From: Mixophyes australis
Lineage: Eukaryota; Chordata; Amphibia; Anura; Limnodynastidae
NCBI GenBank assembly: GCA_036250195.1
Contig: JAVHZZ010000003.1
Location: 20,269,504 to 20,333,503, forward strand
Direction: 5' to 3'
DNA length: 64,000 nucleotides
Shown here: positions 2,745-51,950 of the stretch, piece after piece
Layout: each line of letters opens with the position of its first letter
Numbering within the stretch: position 1 is the first letter of the stretch
The notes under the pieces: generated by a model
Told to the model about the DNA's origin: nothing
What the model saw: only the letters and a program-made list of their open reading frames with translations
Databases searched by the model: none
Translations under genes and position numbers: made by a program

Positions 2745-3010
2745 GGGTCATTGGTGCGGCCTCATCTAGAATACTGTGTTCAGTTCTGGAGGCCATATCT
2801 CCAGAAGGGTATAAATACATTACAGACTGTACAAACAAGGGCAACTATAATGGTGCATGGTCTACAGCACAAAACTTACCCGGAAAGACTAAAAGATCTT
2901 ATTATGTATAGTTTGGCGCAGAGAAGGGAAAGGGGGGACATGATAGAAACTTTCAAATATATCCAGGGTTATAACAAGGTGCAGGAGGGAAACATTCTAC
3001 AAAGGAAGAG
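2745..3010 (+). pseudogene. CR1-type LINE reverse transcriptase C-terminus, 5'-truncated
   Basis: The frame reads LVRPHLEYCVQFWRPYLQKG, then an LQTVQTRAT segment, then YPERLKDLIMYSLAQRRERG and GDMIETFKYIQG. This order is characteristic of the region after the palm in CR1-clade LINE ORF2 proteins (established family knowledge). The endonuclease and catalytic YADD parts are missing, as in a normal 5'-truncated insertion. The frame continues into a QRKRSIRTRGHALTLGG segment, where the 44-bp minisatellite begins. The rest of the same ORF resumes at 6078, so the array sits inside the LINE coding sequence. It is not functional. Confidence 0.8.
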
Positions 3011-6000
3011 AAGTATTAGAACACGAGGACATGCACTGACACTGGGGGGAAGAGAAGTATTAGAACACGAGGACATGTACTGACACTGGCGGGAAGAGAA
3101 GTATTAGAACACGAGGACATGTACTGACACTGGCAGGAAGAGAAGTATTAGAACACGAGGACATGTACTGACACTGGCGGGGAAGAGAGGTATTAGAACA
3201 CGAGGACATGTACTGACACTGGGGGGAAGAGAAGTATTAGAACACGAGGACATGTACTGACACTGGGGGGAAGAGAAGTATTAGACCACGAGGACATGTA
3301 CTGACACTGGGGGGAAGAGAAGTATTAGAACACGAGGACATGCACTGACACTGGGGGGAAGAGAAGTATTAGGACACGAGGACATGTACTGACACTGGGG
3401 GGGAAGAGAAGTATTAGAACACGAGGACATGTACTGACACTGGCGGGGAAGAGAAGTATTAGAACATGAGGACATGTACTGACACTGGGGGGAAGAGAAG
3501 TATTAGAACATGAGGACATGTACTGACACTGGGGGGAAGAGAAGTATTAGGACACAAGGACATGTACTGACACTGGGGAAGAGAAGTATTAGGACACGAG
3601 GACATGTACTGACACTGGGGGGAAGAGAAGTATTAGGACACGAGGACATGTACTGACACTGGGAGGAAGAGAAGTATTAGAACACGAGGACATGTACTGA
3701 CACTGGAGGGAAGAGAAGTATTAGAACACGAGGACATGTACTGACACTGGGGGGAAGAGAAGTATTAGAACACGAGGACATGTACTGACACTGGCGGGAA
3801 GAGAAGTATTAGAACACGAGGACATGCACTGACACTGGGGGGAAGAGAAGTATTAGAACACGAGGACATGTACTGACACTGGGGGGAAGAGAAGTATTAG
3901 AACACGAGGACATGTACTGACACTGGGGGGAAGAGAAGTATTAGAACACGAGGACATGTACTGACACTGGTGGGAAGAGAAGTATTAGAACACGAGGACA
4001 TGTACTGACACTGGGGGGAAGAGAAGTATTAGAACACGAGGACATGTACTGACACTGGTGGGAAGAGAAGTATTAGAACACGAGGACATGTACTGACACT
4101 GGTGGGAAGAGAAGTATTAGAACACGAGGACATGTACTGACACTGGAGGGAAGAGAAGTATTAGAACACGAGGACATGTACTGACACTGGTGGGAAGAGA
4201 AGTATTAGGACACGAGGACATGTACTGACACTGGGGAAGAGAAGTATTAGGACACGAGGACATGTACTGACACTGGGGGGAAGAGAAGTATTAGAACACG
4301 AGGACATGTACTGACACTGGGGGGAAGAGAAGTATTAAAACACGAGGACATGTACTGACACTGGGGGGAAGAGAAGTATTAGAACACGAGGACATGTACT
4401 GACACTGGCGGGAAGAGAAGTATTAGAACACGAGGACATGTACTGACACTGGGGGGAAGAGAAGTATTAAAACACGAGGACATGTACTGACACTGGGGGG
4501 AAGAGAAGTATTAGAACACGAGGACATGTACTGACACTGGCGGGAAGAGAAGTATTAGAACACGAGGACATGTACTGACACTGGGGAAGAGAAGTATTAG
4601 AACACGAGGACATGTACTGACACTGGCGGGAAGAGAAGTATTAGAACACGAGGACATGCACTGACACTGGCGGGAAGAGAAGTATTAGAACACGAGGACA
4701 TGCACTGACACTGGGGGGAAGAGAAGTATTAGAACACGAGGACATGTACTGACACTGGATGGAAGAGAAGTATTAGAACACGAGGACATGTACTGACACT
4801 GGTGGGAAGAGAAGTATTAGAACACAAGGACATGTACTGACACTGGGGGGAAGAGAAGTATTAGAACACGAGGACATGTACTGACACTGGGGGGAAGAGA
4901 AGTATTAGGACACGAGGACATGTACTGACACTGGGGAAGAGAAGTATTAGGACACGAGGACATGTACTGACACTGGGGGGAAGAGAAGTATTAGGACACG
5001 AGGACATGTACTGACACTGGGGGGAAGAGAAGTATTAGAACACGAGGACATGTACTGACACTGGGGGGAAGAGAAGTATTAGAACACGAGGACATGTACT
5101 GACACTGGCGGGAAGAGAAGTATTAGAACACGAGGACATGTACTGACACTGGGGGGAAGAGAAGTATTAGAACACGAGGACATGTACTGACACTGGCGGG
5201 AAGAGAAGTATTAGAACACGAGGACATGCACTGATACTGGGGGGAAGAGAAGTATTAGAACACGAGGACATGTACTGACACTGGAGGGAAGAGAAGTATT
5301 AGAACACGAGGACATGTACTGACACTGGTGGGAAGAGAAGTATTAGAACACAAGGACATGTACTGACACTGGGGGGAAGAGAAGTATTAGAACACGAGGA
5401 CATGTACTGACACTGGCGGGAAGAGAAGTATTAGAACACAAGGACATGTACTGACACTGGGGGGAAGAGAAGTATTAGAACACAAGGACATGTACTGACA
5501 CTGGAGGGAAGAGAAGTATTAGAACACGAGGACATGTACTGACACTGGGGGGAAGAGAAGTATTAGAACACGAGGACATGTACTGACACTGGGGGGAAGA
5601 GAAGTATTAGAACACAAGGACATGTACTGACACTGGAGGGAAGAGAAGTATTAGAACACAAGGACATGTACTGACACTGGGGGGAAGAGAAGTATTAGAA
5701 CACAAGGACATGTACTGACACTGGGGGGAAGAGAAGTATTAGAACACAAGGACATGTACTGACACTGGGGGGAAGAGAAGTATTAGAACACAAGGACATG
5801 TACTGACACTGGGGGGAAGAGAAGTATTAGAACACGAGGACATGTACTGACACTGGGGGGAAGAGAAGTATTAGAACACAAGGACATGTACTGACACTGG
5901 GGGGAAGAGAAGTATTAGAACACGAGGACATGTACTGACACTGGGGGGAAGAGAAGTATTAGAACATGAGGACATGTACTGACACTGGAGGGAAGAGAAG

Positions 6001-6077
6001 TATTAGACCACGAGGACATGTACTGACACTGGGGGGAAGAGAAGTATTAGAACATGAGGACATGTACTGACACTCGG
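3004..6077. repeat. 44-bp minisatellite, about 70 copies
   Basis: The unit is 44 bp, built from GGGAAGAGAAGTATTAG, a RACACRAGGACATG part and YACTGACACTGG. It repeats for about 3.07 kb with few substitutions and small length changes in the G run (some units lose 2-3 bp). The first unit is continuous with LINE coding sequence (the RKRSIRTRGHALTLGG codons), so the array arose by expansion of a piece of the LINE ORF. Because 44 is not a multiple of 3, no long frame is kept. Confidence 0.97.
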
Positions 6078-6245
6078 GGGAAGTCGGTTCAGAGGAAATG
6101 TGAGGAAAAACTACATCACAGAAAGGGTAGTGGATAAGTGGAATATCCTCCAATCAGAGGTCGTATAGGATAATACAGTAGAGCAATTTAAACATCTTTA
6201 GGATAGTCATAATAGATAGAGCTATTTTGCTTGTCTCACCAATAT
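6078..6245 (+). pseudogene. CR1-type LINE ORF2 extreme C-terminus, beyond the minisatellite
   Basis: After the array the sequence reads RKNYITERVVDKWNILQSEVV with a stop, then DNTVEQFKHL. This is the usual CR1-clade ending (VV-x-W-N-x-L-P-x-EVV, then V-x-x-FK). Together with 2745-3010 it shows one LINE copy split by an internal array. In-frame stops show decay. Confidence 0.75.
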
Positions 6246-16316: not shown

Positions 16317-18112
16317 CTGTCTGCACTACCCTGTGGTAACGCTCTGCAGATTATTGCTGCCTGTTCTCTGAGTCTTCAGCACATCTATCTGCAGATCATC
16401 ACAGCCTCCGTGTCTACTCCAGTATCCTGTGGTAACGCCCTGCAGATTATTGCTGCCTGTTCTCTGAGTCTACAGCACATCTATCTGCAGATCATCACAG
16501 CCTCTGTGTCTACTCCACTACCCTGTGGTAACGCTCTGCAGATTATTGCTGCCTGTTCTCTGAGTCTCCAGCACATCTATCTGCAGATCATCACAGCCTC
16601 TGTGTCTACTCCACTATCCTCTGGTGACGCTCTGCAGACTATTGCTGCCTGTTCTCTGAGTCTTCAGCACATCTATCTGCAGATCATCACAGCCTCCGTG
16701 TCTACTCCAGTATCCTGTGGTAACGCCCTGCAGATTATTGCTGCCTGTTCTCTGAGTCTACAGTATATCTATCTGCAGATCATCACAGCCTCTGTGTCTA
16801 CTCCACTACCCTGTGGTAACGCTCTGCAGATTATTGCTGCCTGTTCTCTGAGTCTCCAGCACATCTATCTGCAGATCATCACAGCCTCTGTGTCTACTCC
16901 ACTATCCTCTGGTGACGCTCTGCAGACTATTGCTACCTGTTCTCTGAGTCTTCAGCACATCTATCTGCAGATCATCACAGCCTCCGTGTCTACTCCAGTA
17001 TCCTGTGGTAACGCTCTGCAGATTATTGCTGCCTGTTCTCTGAGTCTCCAGCACATCTATCTGCAGATCATCACAGCCTCTGTGTCTACTCCACTATCCT
17101 GTGGTAACGCTCTGCAGATTATTGCTGCCTGTTCTCCGAGTCTCCAGCACATCTATCTGCAGATCATCACAGCCTCCGTGTCTACTCCAGTATCCTGTGG
17201 TAACGCTCTGCAGATTATTGCTGCCTGTTCTCTGAGTCTCCAGCACATCTATCTGCAGATCATCACAGCCTCTGTGTCTACTCCACTATCCTGTGGTAAC
17301 GCTCTGCAGATTATTGCTGCCTGTTCTCTGAGTCTTCAGCACATCTATCTGCAGATCATCACAGCCTCTGTGTCTACTCCACTATCCTGTGGTAACGCTC
17401 TGCAGATTATTGCTGCCTGTTCTTTGAGTCTCCAGCACATCTATCCGCAGATCATCACAGCCTCCGTGTCTACTCCAGTATCCTGTGGTAACGTTCTGCA
17501 GATTATTGTTGTCTGTTCTCCGAGTCTCCAGCACATCTATCTGCAGATCATCACAGCCTCCGTGTCTACTCCACTATCCTGTGGTAACGCTCTGCAGATT
17601 ATTGCTGCCTGTTCTCCGAGTCTCCAGCACATCTATCCGCAGATCATCACAGCCTCTGTGTCTACTCCACTATCCTGTGGCAACGCTCTGCAGATTATTG
17701 CTGCCTGTTCTCTGAGTCTCCAGCACATCTATCTGCAGATCATCACAGCCTCTGTGTCTACTCCACTATCCTGTGGTAACGTTCTGCAGATTATTGCTGC
17801 CTGCTCTCTGAGTCTTCAGCACATCTATCCGCAGATCATCACAGCCTCTGTGTCTACTCCACTATCCTGTGGTAACGATCTGAAGATTATTGCTGCCTGT
17901 TCTCTGAGTCTTCAGCACATCTATCCGCAGATCATCACAGCCTCTGTGTCTACTCCAGTATCCTGTGGTAACGTTCTGCAGATTATCGCTTCCTGGTCTC
18001 TGAGTCTACAGTATATCTATCCGCAGATCATCTCAGCCACTGTGTCTATTCCAGTATCCCGTGGTAACGCTCTGCAGATTATTGCTACCATTGCTACCAG
18101 CCTCTTGTGTTA
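16317..18112 (+). repeat. 96-bp tandem repeat, about 18.5 copies, open throughout
   Basis: The 96-bp unit encodes a 32-residue repeat. It starts STPVSCGNALQIIAACSLSL and is followed by QHIYLQIITASV. It runs from about 16317, and the frame from 16410 stays open for 567 codons. The first six full units form two copies of a 3-unit (288-bp) block of PVSCGN, PLPCGN and PLSSGD types. Later units mix PLSCGN and PVSCGN. The open frame follows from a unit length divisible by 3 and a stop-free consensus. There is no splice site, signal or known domain to argue for a real protein. Confidence 0.95.
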
Positions 18113-37132: not shown

Positions 37133-37455
37133 ATGGGGGGATGAAGGAAGCCAGATTTTAAATTAAAGACATTTTAATTTTTACCTACTGCGTTATTGCC
37201 TGGTGTGGAAGGCGAGGAAGCTTTACAAGAGTATTATCCTAGGACGATCTGAACCCTTATACAGGCCCTGCAATTGCTCAATTCAGATTGCTGGTTTTAT
37301 TAAGGTGAATGCATCATCTGCTTAAGACATTTTTATTTTCTATACTATAGGGATTCATGCAGGTGTGAAATATGAACAGAAACAGCCACATTTTTTTCAT
37401 ATTTTCTTTCTATAAATTTTACCTTTTGGATCCCAGTTATCAGGGGTCATGAACA

Positions 37456-40136
37456 TGTAACGCCCCCTGCGGGGAAAAGACAGGGACAGACGCACACAAA
37501 AGAATTTACCTTGTAAACGATGGTCACCTCCAGTCCGCTTCCACTTTCCCAGCTGCGATCCAATCCCAGCAGATCCGCAGCCGCAGTCACCTCCGATCAC
37601 GTCCCTCTAAGATAGAGGCAGAGATTACGGCCGTGCCTACCAGGTAAGGGCTGTCCGAGACTACGGCAAAGCACAAGGACACGGTCAGTCCAAGCTCCTT
37701 GCCGCCTCCTCACTTTGTTCTTGCCAAGACGCGGGGGACTACAGGCACTGAAGGCCAAGACTAATCCGAAGACTAATCCCGCCTCAAGTGCCTCACACAC
37801 CTGCCGGTGAGGGCCTAACCGAAAGGGGGAATCGAGCGTGATACTCACCGGGACACTCCCACTTCCGATCCGGTTCTCCTGCACCTTCCCGACTCCTGCG
37901 GATGACAAGAACACACAGCCTCCCTCTACTCTCTCCGTGAGACTAAGTTGGCACCCACAAAACTGGACTGACTACAACGGCGACCCGACCCTAACAACGT
38001 TCTAATGGTCGGCAACGCAACTAAGTCAAACACTATGACTAACTAAGTGTGGTGCACTAACGGAACTACTCACTTACACGCTACGGGGAACACCAGCCGG
38101 TGTTCACAGCCTAAACCGGAGGGCGGTTCCTAACCCCCTCACCCAGGTCGTACCAAGAAGCTGCCTTCTTGCTATGGAGTCACACACAGGCCCCAAGTAC
38201 GGGTTCTTTAAGCCCGGCTGAGGCTCAGTAGAACAGCACACTAACCCGCGGGCCGACTGCCGCACGGAACAGCCGATCGAACTGAACCGCCCGACTGCCT
38301 GTACTCGGGTATCTCACACGTGTCCCTACGTCCGGAACCACAGGTCCACCTGCACGGAACCGGCCTTGAGGACCCTTGATCAGAACCACGGCCGCCCCTG
38401 GAACTGCCTCAAGGTGTGCTGCACTGCCACCAACTCACTCAGCCACCCCCCTTGGGTACCAGTGTGACCCCGGGGACCTAAGGGACAGGGAAACTACGTG
38501 TGTTCTCCCCTGACTATGTGTATGCTGTTACTTACACTTGTCCCCACACAGCACGGGTTAACACAGGAAAACCACAGGAACAAGAGCCTACCTTTAATGG
38601 GGGCCTGACGTCTTGCCCCTGGAACACAATTACATAGCACACCCAAAATACTGTAATGTAAACTACCCTCGCCACACAGACAGAATAAATACAGTCTACA
38701 GTACTTTGCACGCTACTTACCAGAGCACACCGCTGCTAGCCAACCAGCAGGTTGCTACAGCACCACAGGAGCCTCCGCTCTACTGCACCTCCTAACCACG
38801 TGTGCTCACCTCACACAGGACCGCGCCTACACTAACGAGGCTCCCACGCCTCTACCACACAACACCAGGGCCTTATGCCCTACACACCATGGGTCTCTGC
38901 CCAGCTACGCACAGAGCCTTGTGCTCAGATTAATGGGCCTCAGCCCCCTCTCTAACTAAGGGCTCTGAGCCCACTCACTAGGGCCTTATGCCCTACTACC
39001 TAGGGGTCCTAGCCCCTGCCTGAGGCCGGTGGCCTCCCTAACTGAATGAGGGCCTTGTGCCCTTAATAGCCTACGGGCTACCAGCCCCTATGGCCTTCCT
39101 AACTGAGGGCCTTGTGCCCTTAATAGCAGATGGGCTACCAGCCCCTAACCAGGCCCTATGGCCTTCCTATGGCCTCTAGGCCACTAACTACCTAAGGGCC
39201 TTGTGCCCTTGTACACCTGGGGCTCTACGCCCCTCCTAACTAACTGGGGCTTGTCCCCTTTATCAAAGTTATGGCCTACTGGCCCACTATTTCGTTGGGG
39301 CCTAGTGCCCAGGTCCCTGGGCCTTGTGCCCCTACTTTAGCGTGCCCACGGGCCTTGTGCCCGACCGTGCCCACGGGCCTAGTGCCCGAATTAAAGCTGA
39401 GTATACTTACCTGCTCTGCGCAGGATACTCGACTTGCCACGCCGTCTTCTGTTTCTTTCTTCTCCGGGTCTTCCAGACCCTCCAGCCGGCGGCGCCTCTT
39501 CTCCGCTTCGGCGCTGTTGAAGGCTGCTTGGCGGGGGCGCTCTCAGCCCTGACAAGGGCTCCCCGCCGACGATCTCCGCTCCGGCGGCTTGATAGAAGTC
39601 TTCTGGCGGCAGGGTAGCTCACGGCCCTTACAAGGGCCCCCTGCCGCCGCTGCCGCTGGTCTTCTGGCTCGACGTCGTGGAGAGACGTCCTCTCTGTTCT
39701 CCGCCGACGGACTTCTGCCAAAATGGCGCCACCCGGCGACTTATATAGTCGCCGGCGTGACGTCATCAGCCGGCGCGAGCGCTGATTGGCTCGCGTCGGC
39801 GCCAATCTTTTGAATGGCCGGGCGCGAGCCGTGATTGGCTCGCGCATCCGGCCGCTGATTGGCCAGCGGGGAGAGATGAGCCCTGATTGGCTCATCCTTC
39901 CCCCGCGCACAGGACCTGCAAGAAAGAAGTTATACTCACCGCCGCTGGATCGATGGACGGGTAAGTTCTTCTTCTCTTCTTTCTTCCTGCTGGGCACCAT
40001 CAGGGACCTCTTCAGCCCCTCCAGGGGCACAGCGCTGCCGGATATCTTCGCCCTCTTCACGGGCACCGGCTCTGACATCTTCTGTCCCTCCAGGGACACA
40101 TCGCTGGCGGGGGTCTCCACCAGAGACATCCCCACA
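37456..40136 (-). repeat. 3' LTR of the retroelement
   Basis: Starts TGTAACGCCCC and ends CATCCCCACA on the plus strand. U3 lies at the right (about 40136 to 39715) and contains the promoter motifs. The rest would be R and U5, at over 2.2 kb unusually long. It is GC-rich and holds the hairpin array at 38837-39388. An ATTAAA on the minus strand at 38593-38598 is a possible polyadenylation signal; no AATAAA was seen. Confidence 0.93.
38837..39388 (-). repeat. Array of 23 perfect mini-hairpins in the LTR
   Basis: Twenty-three short inverted repeats, each 12-17 nt, follow one another in 552 bp. Examples are GGGC-CTTGT-GCCC, GAGC-CTTGT-GCTC (38914), AAGGGC-CTTGT-GCCCTT (39194), CGGGC-CTAGT-GCCCG (39374), GGGG-CTTGT-CCCC (39246), GAGGCC-GGT-GGCCTC (39022) and GGGCT-ACC-AGCCC (39075, 39132). 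Stems differ in sequence and length (4-6 bp) but pair perfectly, while loops recur (CTTGT, CTTAT, CTAGT, ACC). The array would be in the transcribed R/U5 leader. The same array is at 42488-43039 in the other LTR. Confidence 0.9.
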
Positions 40137-41080
40137 TTTCCGCCGCCTTTTTCCATTGTGGTCCCCACAATCAACGTCTTCTCTTCTACGTCCACCTCCA
40201 AGGGTCGCTTACCGGCATCCCTGACTTGCGTCCACCGGGTCCTTCGCGGTAAAGCCCTCTCGCGCAGGATCCACACCATCCTGGCAACTTCCTCGCCCGA
40301 AGTCGGTATCCAGGGAGTCTCTTCCTCGGCGCATGCCGGAACCTCCCATCCGTCCGATACCTCCTCGGTTGTGCGGGAAGCTTCTTCAGAAGGTGACAAC
40401 ATCCACCACTCTCCAGCTGCGCTCTCTAAAGTACAGTCTTCTTCAGGCAGTACTTCTTCAGCAGCTCTCTCTTCCGGGGTACTGATGGCTTCCATCCTCT
40501 CAGGTACCACCGGGCAGACATCTTCACATGTCTCCGGACACAACGTTGCCCCGTGGAGGGTCTGCTCAGTTCTCCCTTCGTCTTCAGGGACCAACTCTTC
40601 CACAGCCACGGACAAGTCGTCTGACGTATCCGACGTCTCCAATACCCCAGCTCCAGCATCCGGCTGACGCGGGTATTCCTGTCGCGAATCTTGCTTGGAC
40701 GGGACGATCACCTGCGATCCAACAGTCAGCAGGCTCTGCCGATCCTTCCCTCCAGATTCCGACTTCTCTTGAGACCATGGATGGAAGGCTTCCTCGTCCT
40801 TCCACTCGAAGACTTCTACGTCTTCCCATTCATCGGAGACTTCTTCGTCCTCCCATTCACCAAAGAGCTCCTCGGCAACTGGGCACTGGTATGCGAAGTG
40901 TCCAGGGAACCCACACTTCCAGCACAGCATTTCTTCCACCGGTTGCCGTTTAGTACCTCTGTTCTTCTTCTTCCTTGTCTCACAACGTTCCAGGATTTGC
41001 TTCGTGAACGCTGCCACTTCGTCACGAGAGATGACACAGCTGTATCCCTCGTACAGCGGAATGATCCCCCGATGAGCCAT
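39407..41080 (-). CDS. Zinc-knuckle protein of the LTR element (GAG-like, 557 aa)
   Basis: Starts at ATG six bases after the primer-binding site, in a good context (A at -3, G at +4). Residues 53-66, CWKCGFPGHFAYQC, form one CX2CX4HX4C knuckle (C53, C56, H61, C66) as in retroviral and retrotransposon nucleocapsids. A basic patch (RKKKNRGTKRQ) precedes it. The middle (about 70-290) is strongly acidic, with EWEDEE-type stretches and many Glu. The last ~150 residues are Arg-rich (SRRRLYKSPGG, KRRRGAAG, KTRRRKKQK). Only ~52 residues precede the knuckle, so no capsid domain is present. The frame crosses from the internal region (first ~315 codons) into the 3' LTR, passing through the U3 promoter. 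The distal part may simply be open by GC-richness. Expected role: RNA binding and packaging with a partner's proteins. Identity beyond the knuckle is unknown. Confidence 0.7.
   Translation of the reverse strand: MAHRGIIPLYEGYSCVISRDEVAAFTKQILERCETRKKKNRGTKRQPVEEMLCWKCGFPGHFAYQCPVAEELFGEWEDEEVSDEWEDVEVFEWKDEEAFHPWSQEKSESGGKDRQSLLTVGSQVIVPSKQDSRQEYPRQPDAGAGVLETSDTSDDLSVAVEELVPEDEGRTEQTLHGATLCPETCEDVCPVVPERMEAISTPEERAAEEVLPEEDCTLESAAGEWWMLSPSEEASRTTEEVSDGWEVPACAEEETPWIPTSGEEVARMVWILRERALPRRTRWTQVRDAGKRPLEVDVEEKTLIVGTTMEKGGGNVGMSLVETPASDVSLEGQKMSEPVPVKRAKISGSAVPLEGLKRSLMVPSRKKEEKKNLPVHRSSGGEYNFFLAGPVRGGRMSQSGLISPRWPISGRMREPITARARPFKRLAPTRANQRSRRLMTSRRRLYKSPGGAILAEVRRRRTERTSLHDVEPEDQRQRRQGALVRAVSYPAARRLLSSRRSGDRRRGALVRAESAPAKQPSTAPKRRRGAAGWRVWKTRRRKKQKTAWQVEYPAQSR
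40137..40160 (-). other. Polypurine-tract-like sequence before the 3' LTR
   Basis: On the minus strand the bases just upstream of the 3' LTR read GAAAAAGGCGGCGGAAA. They are purine except for two C residues. The position is exact for plus-strand priming, but the tract is imperfect. It also encodes part of the ORF (TMEKGGGN). Confidence 0.6.
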
Positions 41081-41085
41081 CGTTG

Positions 41086-41103
41086 ATCCTGCCGACTACG
41101 CCA
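41086..41103 (-). other. Primer-binding site matching tRNA-Ser (AGA/TGA type)
   Basis: The plus strand reads ATCCTGCCGACTACGCCA. This equals the 3'-terminal 18 nt, including CCA, of vertebrate tRNA-Ser of the AGA/TGA isoacceptors as I recall it. On the element strand it starts TGGCG and lies 3 nt (TTT) after the LTR end. Eighteen nt is the classical length. Serine primers are uncommon among vertebrate retroelements. Confidence 0.88.
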
Positions 41104-41106
41104 AAA

Positions 41107-43787
41107 TGTAACGCCCCCTGCGGGGAAAAGACAGGGACAGACGCACACAAAAGAATTTACCTTGTAAACGATGGTCACCTCCAGTCCGCTTCCACTTTCC
41201 CAGCTGCGATCCAATCCCAGCAGATCCGCAGCCGCAGTCACCTCCGATCACGTCCCTCTAAGATAGAGGCAGAGATTACGGCCGTGCCTACCAGGTAAGG
41301 GCTGTCCGAGACTACGGCAAAGCACAAGGACACGGTCAGTCCAAGCTCCTTGCCGCCTCCTCACTTTGTTCTTGCCAAGACGCGGGGGACTACAGGCACT
41401 GAAGGCCAAGACTAATCCGAAGACTAATCCCGCCTCAAGTGCCTCACACACCTGCCGGTGAGGGCCTAACCGAAAGGGGGAATCGAGCGTGATACTCACC
41501 GGGACACTCCCACTTCCGATCCGGTTCTCCTGCACCTTCCCGACTCCTGCGGATGACAAGAACACACAGCCTCCCTCTACTCTCTCCGTGAGACTAAGTT
41601 GGCACCCACAAAACTGGACTGACTACAACGGCGACCCGACCCTAACAACGTTCTAATGGTCGGCAACGCAACTAAGTCAAACACTATGACTAACTAAGTG
41701 TGGTGCACTAACGGAACTACTCACTTACACGCTACGGGGAACACCAGCCGGTGTTCACAGCCTAAACCGGAGGGCGGTTCCTAACCCCCTCACCCAGGTC
41801 GTACCAAGAAGCTGCCTTCTTGCTATGGAGTCACACACAGGCCCCAAGTACGGGTTCTTTAAGCCCGGCTGAGGCTCAGTAGAACAGCACACTAACCCGC
41901 GGGCCGACTGCCGCACGGAACAGCCGATCGAACTGAACCGCCCGACTGCCTGTACTCGGGTATCTCACACGTGTCCCTACGTCCGGAACCACAGGTCCAC
42001 CTGCACGGAACCGGCCTTGAGGACCCTTGATCAGAACCACGGCCGCCCCTGGAACTGCCTCAAGGTGTGCTGCACTGCCACCAACTCACTCAGCCACCCC
42101 CCTTGGGTACCAGTGTGACCCCGGGGACCTAAGGGACAGGGAAACTACGTGTGTTCTCCCCTGACTATGTGTATGCTGTTACTTACACTTGTCCCCACAC
42201 AGCACGGGTTAACACAGGAAAACCACAGGAACAAGAGCCTACCTTTAATGGGGGCCTGACGTCTTGCCCCTGGAACACAATTACATAGCACACCCAAAAT
42301 ACTGTAATGTAAACTACCCTCGCCACACAGACAGAATAAATACAGTCTACAGTACTTTGCACGCTACTTACCAGAGCACACCGCTGTTAGCCAACCAGCA
42401 GGTTGCTACAGCACCACAGGAGCCTCCGCTCTACTGCACCTCCTAACCACGTGTGCTCACCTCACACAGGACCGCGCCTACACTAACGAGGCTCCCACGC
42501 CTCTACCACACAACACCAGGGCCTTATGCCCTACACACCATGGGTCTCTGCCCAGCTACGCACAGAGCCTTGTGCTCAGATTAATGGGCCTCAGCCCCCT
42601 CTCTAACTAAGGGCTCTGAGCCCACTCACTAGGGCCTTATGCCCTACTACCTAGGGGTCCTAGCCCCTGCCTGAGGCCGGTGGCCTCCCTAACTGAATGA
42701 GGGCCTTGTGCCCTTAATAGCCTACGGGCTACCAGCCCCTATGGCCTTCCTAACTGAGGGCCTTGTGCCCTTAATAGCAGATGGGCTACCAGCCCCTAAC
42801 CAGGCCCTATGGCCTTCCTATGGCCTCTAGGCCACTAACTACCTAAGGGCCTTGTGCCCTTGTACACCTGGGGCTCTACGCCCCTCCTAACTAACTGGGG
42901 CTTGTCCCCTTTATCAAAGTTATGGCCTACTGGCCCACTATTTCGTTGGGGCCTAGTGCCCAGGTCCCTGGGCCTTGTGCCCCTACTTTAGCGTGCCCAC
43001 GGGCCTTGTGCCCGACCGTGCCCACGGGCCTAGTGCCCGAATTAAAGCTGAGTATACTTACCTGCTCTGCGCAGGATACTCGACTTGCCACGCCGTCTTC
43101 TGTTTCTTTCTTCTCCGGGTCTTCCAGACCCTCCAGCCGGCGGCGCCTCTTCTCCGCTTCGGCGCTGTTGAAGGCTGCTTGGCGGGGGCGCTCTCAGCCC
43201 TGACAAGGGCTCCCCGCCGACGATCTCCGCTCCGGCGGCTTGATAGAAGTCTTCTGGCGGCAGGGTAGCTCACGGCCCTTACAAGGGCCCCCTGCCGCCG
43301 CTGCCGCTGGTCTTCTGGCTCGACGTCGTGGAGAGACGTCCTCTCTGTTCTCCGCCGACGGACTTCTGCCAAAATGGCGCCACCCGGCGACTTATATAGT
43401 CGCCGGCGTGACGTCATCAGCCGGCGCGAGCGCTGATTGGCTCGCGTCGGCGCCAATCTTTTGAATGGCCGGGCGCGAGCCGTGATTGGCTCGCGCATCC
43501 GGCCGCTGATTGGCCAGCGGGGAGAGATGAGCCCTGATTGGCTCATCCTTCCCCCGCGCACAGGACCTGCAAGAAAGAAGTTATACTCACCGCCGCTGGA
43601 TCGATGGACGGGTAAGTTCTTCTTCTCTTCTTTCTTCCTGCTGGGCACCATCAGGGACCTCTTCAGCCCCTCCAGGGGCACAGCGCTGCCGGATATCTTC
43701 GCCCTCTTCACGGGCACCGGCTCTGACATCTTCTGTCCCTCCAGGGACACATCGCTGGCGGGGGTCTCCACCAGAGACATCCCCACA
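41107..43787 (-). repeat. 5' LTR of the retroelement
   Basis: Copy of 37456-40136 at constant offset 3651, with one substitution noticed (42387). Transcription on the minus strand would start near 43366, about 25 bp beyond the TATA box at 43392-43398. It would give a leader of more than 2.2 kb before the primer-binding site. Confidence 0.93.
43384..43547 (-). promoter_or_regulatory. U3 promoter of the 5' LTR: TATA, CRE and four CCAAT boxes
   Basis: On the minus strand TATATAA lies at 43392-43398, a perfect TGACGTCA (CRE/ATF site) at 43409-43416, and CCAAT at 43436-43440, 43485-43489, 43509-43513 and 43537-43541, all upstream. A plus-strand CCAAT is at 43453-43457. A GCCATTTT (YY1-like) motif lies just downstream near 43370-43377. 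The same set occurs in the 3' LTR at 39741-39890. TATA and three of the four CCAAT boxes are in or at the edge of perfect hairpins. Activity is inferred from motifs only. Confidence 0.65.
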
Positions 43788-43791
43788 AACA

Positions 43792-50854: not shown

Positions 50855-51950
50855 AAGAGAGTGTGTACCACAGAGTATGTACCGCAGAGTGTGTACAGCA
50901 GAGTGTGCACTGCAGGGTGTGTACAGCAGAGTGTATACCGCAGAGTGTGTACTGCAGAGCGTCTACTGCAGAGTGTGTACCGCAGAGTGTGTACAGCAGA
51001 GTGTATACCGTAGAGTGTGTACAGCAGAGTGTGTACAGCAGAGTGTATACAGCAGAGTGTATACTGCAGAGTGTGTACTGCAGAGTGTATACCGCAGAGT
51101 GTATACCGCAGAGTGTGTACCGCAGAGTGTGTGCAGCAGAGTTTATACCGCAGAGTGTATACCGCAGAGTGTGTACCGCAGAGTGTGTACAGCAGAGTGT
51201 ATACCGCAGAGTGTGTACAGCAGAGTGTGTACAGCAGAATGTGCACTGCAGAGTGTGTCCAGCAGAGTGTATACTGCCTAGTGTGTACCGCAGAGTGTGT
51301 ACAGCAGAGTTTGTGCCGCAGAATGTGTACCGCAGAGTGTGTACCGCAGAGTTTGTACTGCAGAGTGTGTACTGCAGAGTATGTACTGCAGAGTATGTAC
51401 TGCAGAGTGTGTACTGCGCAGTGTGTACTGCGCAGTGTGTACTGCAGAGTGGGTATTGCAGAGTGTTTACTGCAGAGTTTGTACTGCAGAGTGTGTACAG
51501 CAGAGTGTGTACTGCAGAGTTTGTACTGCAGAGTGTGTACCGCAGAGTGTGTACAGCAGAGTGTGTACTCTAGAGTGTGTACCGCAGAGTGTGTACTGCA
51601 GAGTTTGTACCGCAGAGTGTGTACCGCAGAGTGTGTACCCCAGAGTTTGTACCGCAGAGTGTATACCGCAGAGTGTATACCGCAGAGTGTGTACCGCAGA
51701 GTTTGTACTGCAGTACCTGTGTAAGGCTAAATACACACAATGGCGTTTGCCTGTTTTTTAGCACATAGTAAGAAGCAGAGTTTGTACTGCAGCGTGTGTA
51801 CAGCAGCGTGTGTACTGCAGTGTGTGTACTGCAGAGTTTGTACCGCAGAGTGTGTACCGCAGAGTTTGTACTGCAGTACCTGTGTAAGGCTACATACACA
51901 CAATGGCGTTTGCCTGTGTTTTTTAGCACATAGTAAGAAGCAAGTGAAAC
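50855..51950. repeat. 14-bp minisatellite with duplicated flank
   Basis: The unit GCAGAGTGTGTACC (variants GTATACC, GTGTACA, TTTGTACT) repeats about 60 times to 51718. A ~60-bp spacer follows (TGTGTAAGGCTAAATACACA, CAATGGCGTTTGCCTG, AGCACATAGTAAGAAGCA). Then come more units (51776-51877) and the spacer again (51878-51943). Array plus flank was therefore duplicated as a block. Long frames in all phases are artefacts of the 14-bp period. Confidence 0.95.

Follow-up and report, generated by a model that had tools for sequence, protein, structure and literature searches.

The 64,000-nucleotide (nt) stretch of the Mixophyes australis genome analyzed in the present study (assembly GCA_036250195.1, contig JAVHZZ010000003.1, positions 20,269,504 to 20,333,503; hereafter the window) carries a complete long terminal repeat (LTR) retrotransposon at 37452-43791 on the minus strand, in which the LTR of lower coordinates is the 3' LTR. 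The hallmarks of such elements are present, namely, near-identical LTRs, TG..CA ends, a 4-bp target-site duplication, and a primer binding site, which we take to match the 3' end of tRNA-Ser (Table 1). The element is young, and its internal part, between the two LTRs, is only 970 bp in length. Its 557-codon zinc-knuckle frame crosses the U3 (unique 3') part of the 3' LTR and the promoter and enters the R (repeated) part, in which the TAA within the splice-donor consensus CAG/GTAAGT serves as the stop codon. Neither a reverse transcriptase nor an integrase was found in the element, the Pfam search of which covered this long frame and returned two zinc-knuckle families only. The sequence identifies the element as a gene-poor, non-autonomous LTR retrotransposon copy.

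Both LTRs of this element contain a row of 23 hairpins (38837-39388 in the 3' LTR). Their stems, of 4-6 bp, are perfect, and their loops span 3-6 nt; in the 5' LTR, the row would form part of the RNA leader. We consider it probable, on balance, that this row of short inverted repeats, in which pairing has been kept, consists of leader hairpins acting as docking sites for a protein, most plausibly a Gag-type protein in packaging.

The initial annotation had noted the 23 mini-hairpins by inspection, and the excess over chance was confirmed: 18 stems of at least 5 bp with a loop of at most 6 nt were counted, against a mean of 4.2 (standard deviation (SD) 1.7, maximum 10) in 500 dinucleotide shuffles, and 22 stems of at least 4 bp against 11.2 (maximum 18) in as many shuffles. 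Folding with shuffled controls, which had been proposed as a check, gave a z score of -3.7 for the RNA and -4.4 for the DNA, with none of 100 shuffles being as good in either case. The 23 units were chosen by hand from the sequence. In a test in which units were not selected by pairing, the loop motif A[CT][AT]AG was flanked by at least four contiguous pairs in 11 of its 12 occurrences in the array, but in none of 6 elsewhere in the LTR and in 3 of 509 in the remainder of the window. When the 3' arms were re-dealt among units, the paired positions within 5 of the loop averaged 73.9 of 115, compared with 108 in the array itself, and none of 20000 re-dealings reached the observed value, a comparison that is limited by the units having been picked for pairing. 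The units are not the independent pieces of evidence that they were initially taken to be because array blocks of 54-113 nt are tandem duplicates of one another at 70-87% identity. A Fisher test on the loops of homologous units (1 of 25 against 7 of 21), for which the unit pairs and their differences were judged by eye, is given no weight here. The diversity of stems within the window array is only moderate since 13 of the 23 units share GGGC-N5-GCCC.

More diverged relatives were sought in the genome (3.13 Gb in 680 contigs) with the 17-mer VGAGCCAATCAGGGCTC, the core of a CCAAT palindrome in which the next base differs from that of the AATCAG box in the window. This query had 187 genomic sites and its reversed control had none. 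Seventy of these older loci, selected by the promoter motif irrespective of an array, were examined, and in 35 the number of 5-bp hairpins per 900 nt exceeded all 40 shuffles, the highest count being 28, compared with a mean of 4.5. The arrays at these loci have stems of their own, which differ from those of the window. At one of the older loci, L080, one hairpin unit of 25 nt is repeated in tandem, almost perfectly, from approximately 600 nt past the CCAAT palindrome onward, probably as a result of a recent expansion.

Paired changes were counted in an alignment built on a 300-nt segment of locus L104; this segment, in which nine hairpins with stems of 5 bp or more comprise 56 pairs, was detected in 28 loci. 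The single row L104 supplied the structure, and of the 27 rows counted, 26 belong to the 35 array loci; L086 was left out because half of it was misaligned. Watson-Crick pairs occupied 1253 of 1473 cells, while 500 shuffles had a mean of 1214.5 and a maximum of 1236, and double-change cells numbered 36 against a mean of 20.3 and a maximum of 31. G.U was found in 84 cells and A.C in 45, an approximately twofold difference, and the two mismatches were seen in at least two rows at 20 and 10 of the 56 pairs, respectively. Double changes in at least four rows occurred at four pairs, every one of them between GC and AT. Minority letters per site-row were 0.107 in stems, 0.145 in loops, and 0.172 in spacers.

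A common loop was apparent when the window array was combined with those of the 24 older loci of highest z. These 25 arrays contain 96 distinct perfect hairpins with a 5-bp stem and a 5-nt loop, 75 of which have a closing C-G pair. The form C-[AG]NNAG-G, i.e., a closing C-G pair and the loop RNNAG, accounts for 37 of the 96 and is carried on 11 different 5-nt arms, whereas shuffled sets contain 0.8 such hairpins on average. The motif is present on the sense strand only, the mirrored loop motif being absent from the 96 distinct hairpins. In the 25 arrays, C[AG]NNAGG extends to at least three pairs in 321 of 440 cases, against 4 of 228 in the window background. The combination of a common loop motif with variable, paired stems, by which degenerate packaging signals are recognized, was thus found in these arrays. 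A fixed head on stems that are free yet paired, and on one strand, is the expected appearance of an RNA-binding site, and a symmetric process acting on DNA would not predict the strand bias of the RNNAG motif.

Young copies were collected as the best 40 of 2510 candidates for the array query (88-100% identity), the best 40 of 2135 for a query from U5 (the unique 5' part), and the best 40 of 2310 for the array of another subfamily, and 60 loci were retrieved from these best-match lists. Three sets of rows were compared: 18 rows, i.e., the window and 17 copies (without L021, L023, and L025); 38 rows including the window (without L021, L025, and L040, which were miscut or deleted); and 44 rows, comprising the window and 43 distinct arrays cut from 58 of the 60 loci (without L021 and L025). 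In the 18 rows, variable sites were found at 4 of 221 stem, 7 of 106 loop, and 19 of 225 spacer positions of the array and at 33 of 695 positions of U5. The corresponding array values were 8 of 220, 13 of 106, and 47 of 226 in the 38 rows, and 16 of 220, 18 of 106, and 46 of 226 in the 44 rows (Fisher test of stem versus spacer, 6e-5). When only G/C sites were considered in the 38 rows, 7 of 188 stem sites and 23 of 98 spacer sites varied (Fisher test, 6e-7). Stems are the least variable class of site in the array among young copies. Changes on one side of a stem have lasted in the 44 rows: pair 6 of unit 15 is AC in 11 and GT in 7, and pair 1 of unit 11 is TC in 7. Apart from unit 7, which is discussed below, young copies keep their pairing and show no sign of a fast rewriting of both arms.

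The TATA box at sense position 390 of the LTR places the predicted start near sense position 420, and in the sense orientation the array begins 22 nt past the donor consensus. Donor sites of at least 12 bits are rare, with one occurring across both strands of 57 kb of background, and the background of acceptors at 10 bits is 0.026 per kb. Use of the predicted donor and acceptor (first intron base 43061, first exon base 41117) would excise an intron of 1944 nt, including the array, and leave a leader of 344 nt that lacks ATG. The predicted unspliced leader (41081-43368, minus strand) contains 2 ATG in 2288 nt, against 16.7 (SD 3.2, minimum 9) in 500 shuffles, and CAT shows no corresponding shortage (20 against 14.5); therefore, the sense strand is apparently under constraint. 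The near-absence of ATG from a 2.3-kb leader suggests that it is scanned by ribosomes. In the 24 older array loci, ATG was similarly depleted (79 against 157.5) and CAT was not (237 against 165.7). The donor was looked for in 34 of the 35 array loci, with L146 being left out: in 23 of them, AGGTRAGT follows the CCAAT palindrome at a distance of 100-700 nt, and one has it on the antisense strand. The distance from this donor to the next hairpin, in its scanned form, was exactly 28 nt in 14 of the 23 loci and within 27-31 nt in four more, and fell outside this range in five.

Some copies of the family have approximately 7.4 kb between their LTRs. One such copy, located on contig C4 (near 343.52 Mb) and read piecewise, with two pol pieces being searched separately, yielded matches to reverse transcriptase, RNase H, and integrase, as well as a match to the protease family PF13975 just under the cut-off (27.4 of 28.2 bits). 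The order of protease, reverse transcriptase, RNase H, and then integrase indicates that this autonomous relative is of the Ty3 type. Relative to the window LTR, its sequence is 92% identical over sense positions 772-1038 and 98% identical over 1047-1401 (L034), 98% identical over 1965-2500 (L078), and 100% identical, as rounded by the tool, over 1301-2137. The primer site and the LTR tip are common to both elements at 31 of 33 nt. Most of the array and U5 are thus shared with one autonomous copy and the promoter is not; recent recombination could be an alternative cause of this sharing. The promoter and R of the autonomous copy differ from those of the window, only the short cores of the CCAAT and R hairpins being matched, and it has a donor of its own, CAG/GTAAGG, ahead of the array. 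In its promoter, a 17-bp perfect palindrome with a 3-nt loop (L034, sense 711-747) is located roughly where the window element has the CRE (cyclic AMP response element)-like TGACGTCA.

Structural selection on the leader RNA, one of the two explanations originally offered for the array, is supported by the low variability of stems, the excess of paired changes over shuffles in diverged copies, and the sense-only loop. Under such a mechanism, the array would grow by the tandem duplication of modules of one and two hairpins, and pairing would be selected in the RNA while stem letters drift, mostly between G-C and A-U with G-U being present. The array would be lost on splicing from the donor, so that only full-length RNA would carry it, and a protein may read the C-RNNAG-G heads of the hairpins, with many weak sites providing avidity. 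Selection on pairing in the sense RNA together with a recognized head would explain the conservation of stems, the covariation in older copies, the preference for G.U over A.C, the strand bias, and the position of the array. Packaging as the use of the array is the least certain step. We infer it to be the likeliest use because what the gene-poor element has in common with the autonomous one is mainly this leader, which both would need for a common particle. As a more tentative extension, which we regard as possible rather than probable, these rows may represent a new class of packaging code, in which 20 to 30 or more hairpins have fixed C-G/RNNAG heads and drifting but paired stems, rows are resized by tandem duplication into a barcode-like array for each family, and retention of the row lets gene-poor partners ride along.

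A number of observations weigh against this interpretation. Half of the older loci (35 of 70) had no array beyond shuffles. In the L104 alignment, nine pairs had any double change, a number not above that of the shuffles (mean 7.9, maximum 13). It was matched or exceeded in two of six slid controls (10 and 13 pairs), in which 15 and 21 cells had a double change and paired cells were far less numerous (422 and 296). The shuffles in this test also leave the relatedness of the rows in place. Stems with one G.U were only slightly in excess in the 24 older loci (304 against 265, SD 21; 259 against 243, SD 17, for one A.C) and were not in excess in the window array (5 against 6.8). Local folding is as good for the antisense strand as for the sense strand (z of -5.5 and -4.9), the mean predicted pairing of unit stems on the sense strand is only 0.63 at a span of 40 or 0.42 at a span of 150, and that of units 3, 4, 18, 19, 20, and 21 is 0.04 or less at both spans. 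The splice sites, the start site, and the RNA ends are predictions, the donor and acceptor that place the hairpins in the leader being known as consensus matches only, and by eye the splice acceptor is absent from the LTR end of the autonomous copy. Among young copies, no double change was found in the 38 rows, in which six stem pairs vary but never on both sides of one row, and the 44 rows had almost none, with one clear case in unit 16; one pair of unit 15 occurs as GC, GT, AC, and AT. What would have refuted the initial proposal, an independent variation of stem positions across copies, was observed in part in young copies, in which the few stem changes are nearly all one-sided, and was not observed in old ones. 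Unit 7 (39219-39233) differs as a whole block between subfamilies, unlike the other units: the form in the window is found in 14 of the 44 rows, while 30 carry a form resembling GGGGACTCTGAGCCCC, with a GGGG/CCCC stem in which the four G-C pairs are kept. This could be a copying or conversion event.

The palindromes in the promoter are a further difficulty, as those around the CCAAT and TATA boxes are not explained by a function in the leader. Every one of the four CCAAT boxes of the sense LTR lies within a palindrome whose arms reach 6 bp or more, compared with 1 of 121 in the background. At 30 of the VGAGCCAATCAGGGCTC loci, which have 27 distinct flank pairs, complementarity was 52 of 81 against 39.7 when the flanks were re-dealt (reached by 2 of 10000), and the next base beside the core was unpaired in 11 of the 30. 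Hairpins of at least 6 bp numbered five in the promoter (0.67 expected) and four in R (0.76), values that none of 300 shuffles reached in either case; the excess was weak in the internal part (5 against 1.56, 4 of 300 shuffles) and the rest of U5 was at chance (3 against 2.37). In the 18 rows, 2 of 78 positions in the palindrome arms of U3 varied and 9 of 78 in other U3, while one nested stem of R had 0 variable sites of 26 and other R had 40 of 305, a category into which the stem sites of the second nested hairpin fell because the script did not locate it. An alignment by eye of the two nested R hairpins showed the same architecture and 8-nt bulge with a matched 3-nt insertion or deletion across both outer arms. 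A second subfamily (L034 and L046) has GGTGAGCC.AATCAG.GGCTCACC in place of GATGAGCC.AATCAG.GGCTCATC, and, at its TATA box, GCGCCGACT.ATTTA.AGTCGGCGC in place of CCGGCGACT.ATATA.AGTCGCCGG; both arms differ together in each case, and L038 does not have the latter form. The promoter palindromes may represent a separate phenomenon, or they may hint at a copying process with subsequent filtering by selection.

Such a process, in which template switching or quasi-palindrome correction during reverse transcription or replication rewrites the arms without selection, is in our opinion an unlikely origin of the array. The joint differences of both arms in the promoter palindromes, the matched indel of the R hairpins, and the block change of unit 7 are in line with it; the paired differences between window-array units, which by eye are mostly transversions, and the lack of an excess of stems with one G.U are also in its favor. 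Template switching has been described to create and maintain hairpins, and the published mechanism is compatible with such patterns (PMC8794818). Against it, one-sided stem changes last in several young rows and double changes are nearly absent. Stems change less than spacers, while free rewriting should not slow their rate; the rest of U5 shows no surplus of hairpins; the loop motif is restricted to the sense strand; and older copies show changes between GC and AT with G.U. A change of both arms at one step between close copies was not seen in the 38 or 44 rows, apart from one clear double change in the 44 rows and the block in unit 7. Ongoing rewriting by template switching, the other explanation in the initial annotation, thus received no support: the 38 rows had no double change, the 44 rows had one clear case and one pair in four combinations, and the older double changes are of the GC/AT kind.

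It is also improbable, in our assessment, that the role of the hairpins in the RNA is not packaging but concerns splicing, export, or translation, for example, as G-rich stems that regulate the donor or as stems tolerated by scanning ribosomes. The constant 28-nt distance between the donor and the first hairpin at 14 of 23 donor-bearing array loci and the avoidance of ATG in the leader are consistent with such roles, but splicing enhancers made of G runs would need neither complementary arms nor an RNNAG loop. Binding of a dimeric host factor to dyads in the duplex DNA of the LTR is very unlikely. Dyad symmetry and the palindromes in the promoter speak for it; however, the half sites vary, with 11 arms on one loop motif, loops of 3-6 nt shift the spacing of half sites, and the loop motif is asymmetric and confined to a single strand. 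Dyads resembling those of NFI or AP-2 were rejected because the half sites vary. That the array is a functionless by-product of the tandem duplication of one GC-rich palindrome is scarcely credible, since, although its units are duplicates and L080 shows a near-perfect tandem array, conservation within the array is highest in the stems and many different stem letters stay paired.

Among known systems, the leader hairpins used for packaging (psi) and dimerization by retroviruses and LTR retrotransposons, such as SL1-SL4 of human immunodeficiency virus, psi of murine leukemia virus, and the Ty1 leader, are the closest to the packaging function favored here; they usually comprise a handful of unique hairpins. 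The array likewise consists of short hairpins, which are predicted to be located in the leader behind the donor and so in unspliced RNA only, and the window element, similar to retroviral systems, has a frame for a CCHC protein. Unlike psi hairpins, it comprises 23 or more degenerate copies per row, which have a single loop code in common. The TR-GAG elements of plants are non-autonomous LTR elements with a gag-like frame. The window element resembles them in having LTRs, a primer site, a zinc-knuckle frame, and no pol, and differs in that its 557-codon frame enters the 3' LTR up to the splice-donor consensus and in that the genome is of the animal type.

Dispersed degenerate packaging signals have been described for single-stranded RNA viruses, including satellite tobacco necrosis virus, with the loop A.X.X.A, and MS2 (PMC3662417). 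These resemble the array in being many hairpins with a short motif in the loop; in contrast, the array is arranged in tandem in one leader segment of the LTR element, is not dispersed over a coding genome, and is not known to contact a capsid. The organelle DNA of Volvox contains dispersed short palindromic repeats, which have been called selfish, and many nuclear ones are degenerate in the stem (PMC2670323). Many small hairpins and recurring loops are common to both, whereas the window array occupies one place in the LTR and its stems are conserved. The packaging element of small LTR elements is stated to be conserved in secondary structure only and hence to be difficult to identify (PMC4558846). 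No title or abstract on hairpin arrays in LTRs was found in the open-access literature in a search that was not aimed at the loop code RNNAG.

Since this single genome has many diverged LTR copies with arrays of their own (35 of 70 loci), pairing, the loop code, and copy number may be compared within one host, and the choice between selection and template switching becomes countable in these copies. The array is also a candidate cis-acting part that could let a gene-poor element use an autonomous one.

Table 1. Positions in the window of the features of the LTR retrotransposon.
Feature	Position	Strand	Basis or remark
Target-site duplication AACA, left copy	37452..37455	.	sequence
3' LTR	37456..40136	-	2681 bp, TG..CA, 1 mismatch to 5' LTR
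Array of 23 mini-hairpins, 3' LTR	38837..39388	-	hairpin counts, loop-motif test
Predicted splice donor CAG/GTAAGT, 3' LTR (same as in 5' LTR)	39405..39413	-	its TAA closes the 557-codon frame
557-codon open frame, one CCHC zinc knuckle	39407..41080	-	start 5 nt past primer site
Nested R hairpin 2, like hairpin 1, outer stem 3 bp shorter	39530..39567	-	
Nested R hairpin 1, outer stem of 10 bp, inner stem of 6 bp, bulge of 8 nt	39605..39648	-	
TATA box in 9-bp palindrome CCGGCGACT.ATATA.AGTCGCCGG	39733..39755	-	sequence
Four CCAAT boxes, each in its own perfect palindrome, arms 6-9 bp	39774..39896	-	motif scan
Primer binding site TGGCGTAGTCGGCAGGAT	41086..41103	-	also in autonomous relative
5' LTR	41107..43787	-	2681 bp, pairs with 3' LTR
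Predicted splice acceptor, first exon base 41117	41117..41140	-	10.5 bits, best of the element
Same array, 5' LTR (predicted RNA leader)	42488..43039	-	LTR comparison
Predicted splice donor CAG/GTAAGT, first intron base 43061	43056..43064	-	12.6 bits
Target-site duplication AACA, right copy	43788..43791	.	sequence

Other searches concerned the surroundings of the element and its possible relatives. Rfam gave no match at the gathering score in the window, no plasmid match was found, and the viral contigs searched contained neither a relative of the 557-codon frame nor a match to the primer-site pattern. Matches to the paired-hairpin pattern in phages (L001-L004) were rejected as chance; by eye, and untranslated, they look like coding repeats of the collagen GXY type. 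The longest open run in the first 730 nt of the LTR is 242 codons, a length reached by 3 of 2000 mononucleotide shuffles. The window also holds long tandem arrays with units of 44 bp (3004-6083), 96 bp (16324-18086), and 14 bp (50858-51876). Elsewhere in the genome, hairpin arrays occur as equally spaced triplets at C1:265324678-265332480, C12:59119176-59127154, and C4:81350886-81366085, with spacings of 3620, 3704, and 7365 nt, and these are probably elements with three tandem LTRs.

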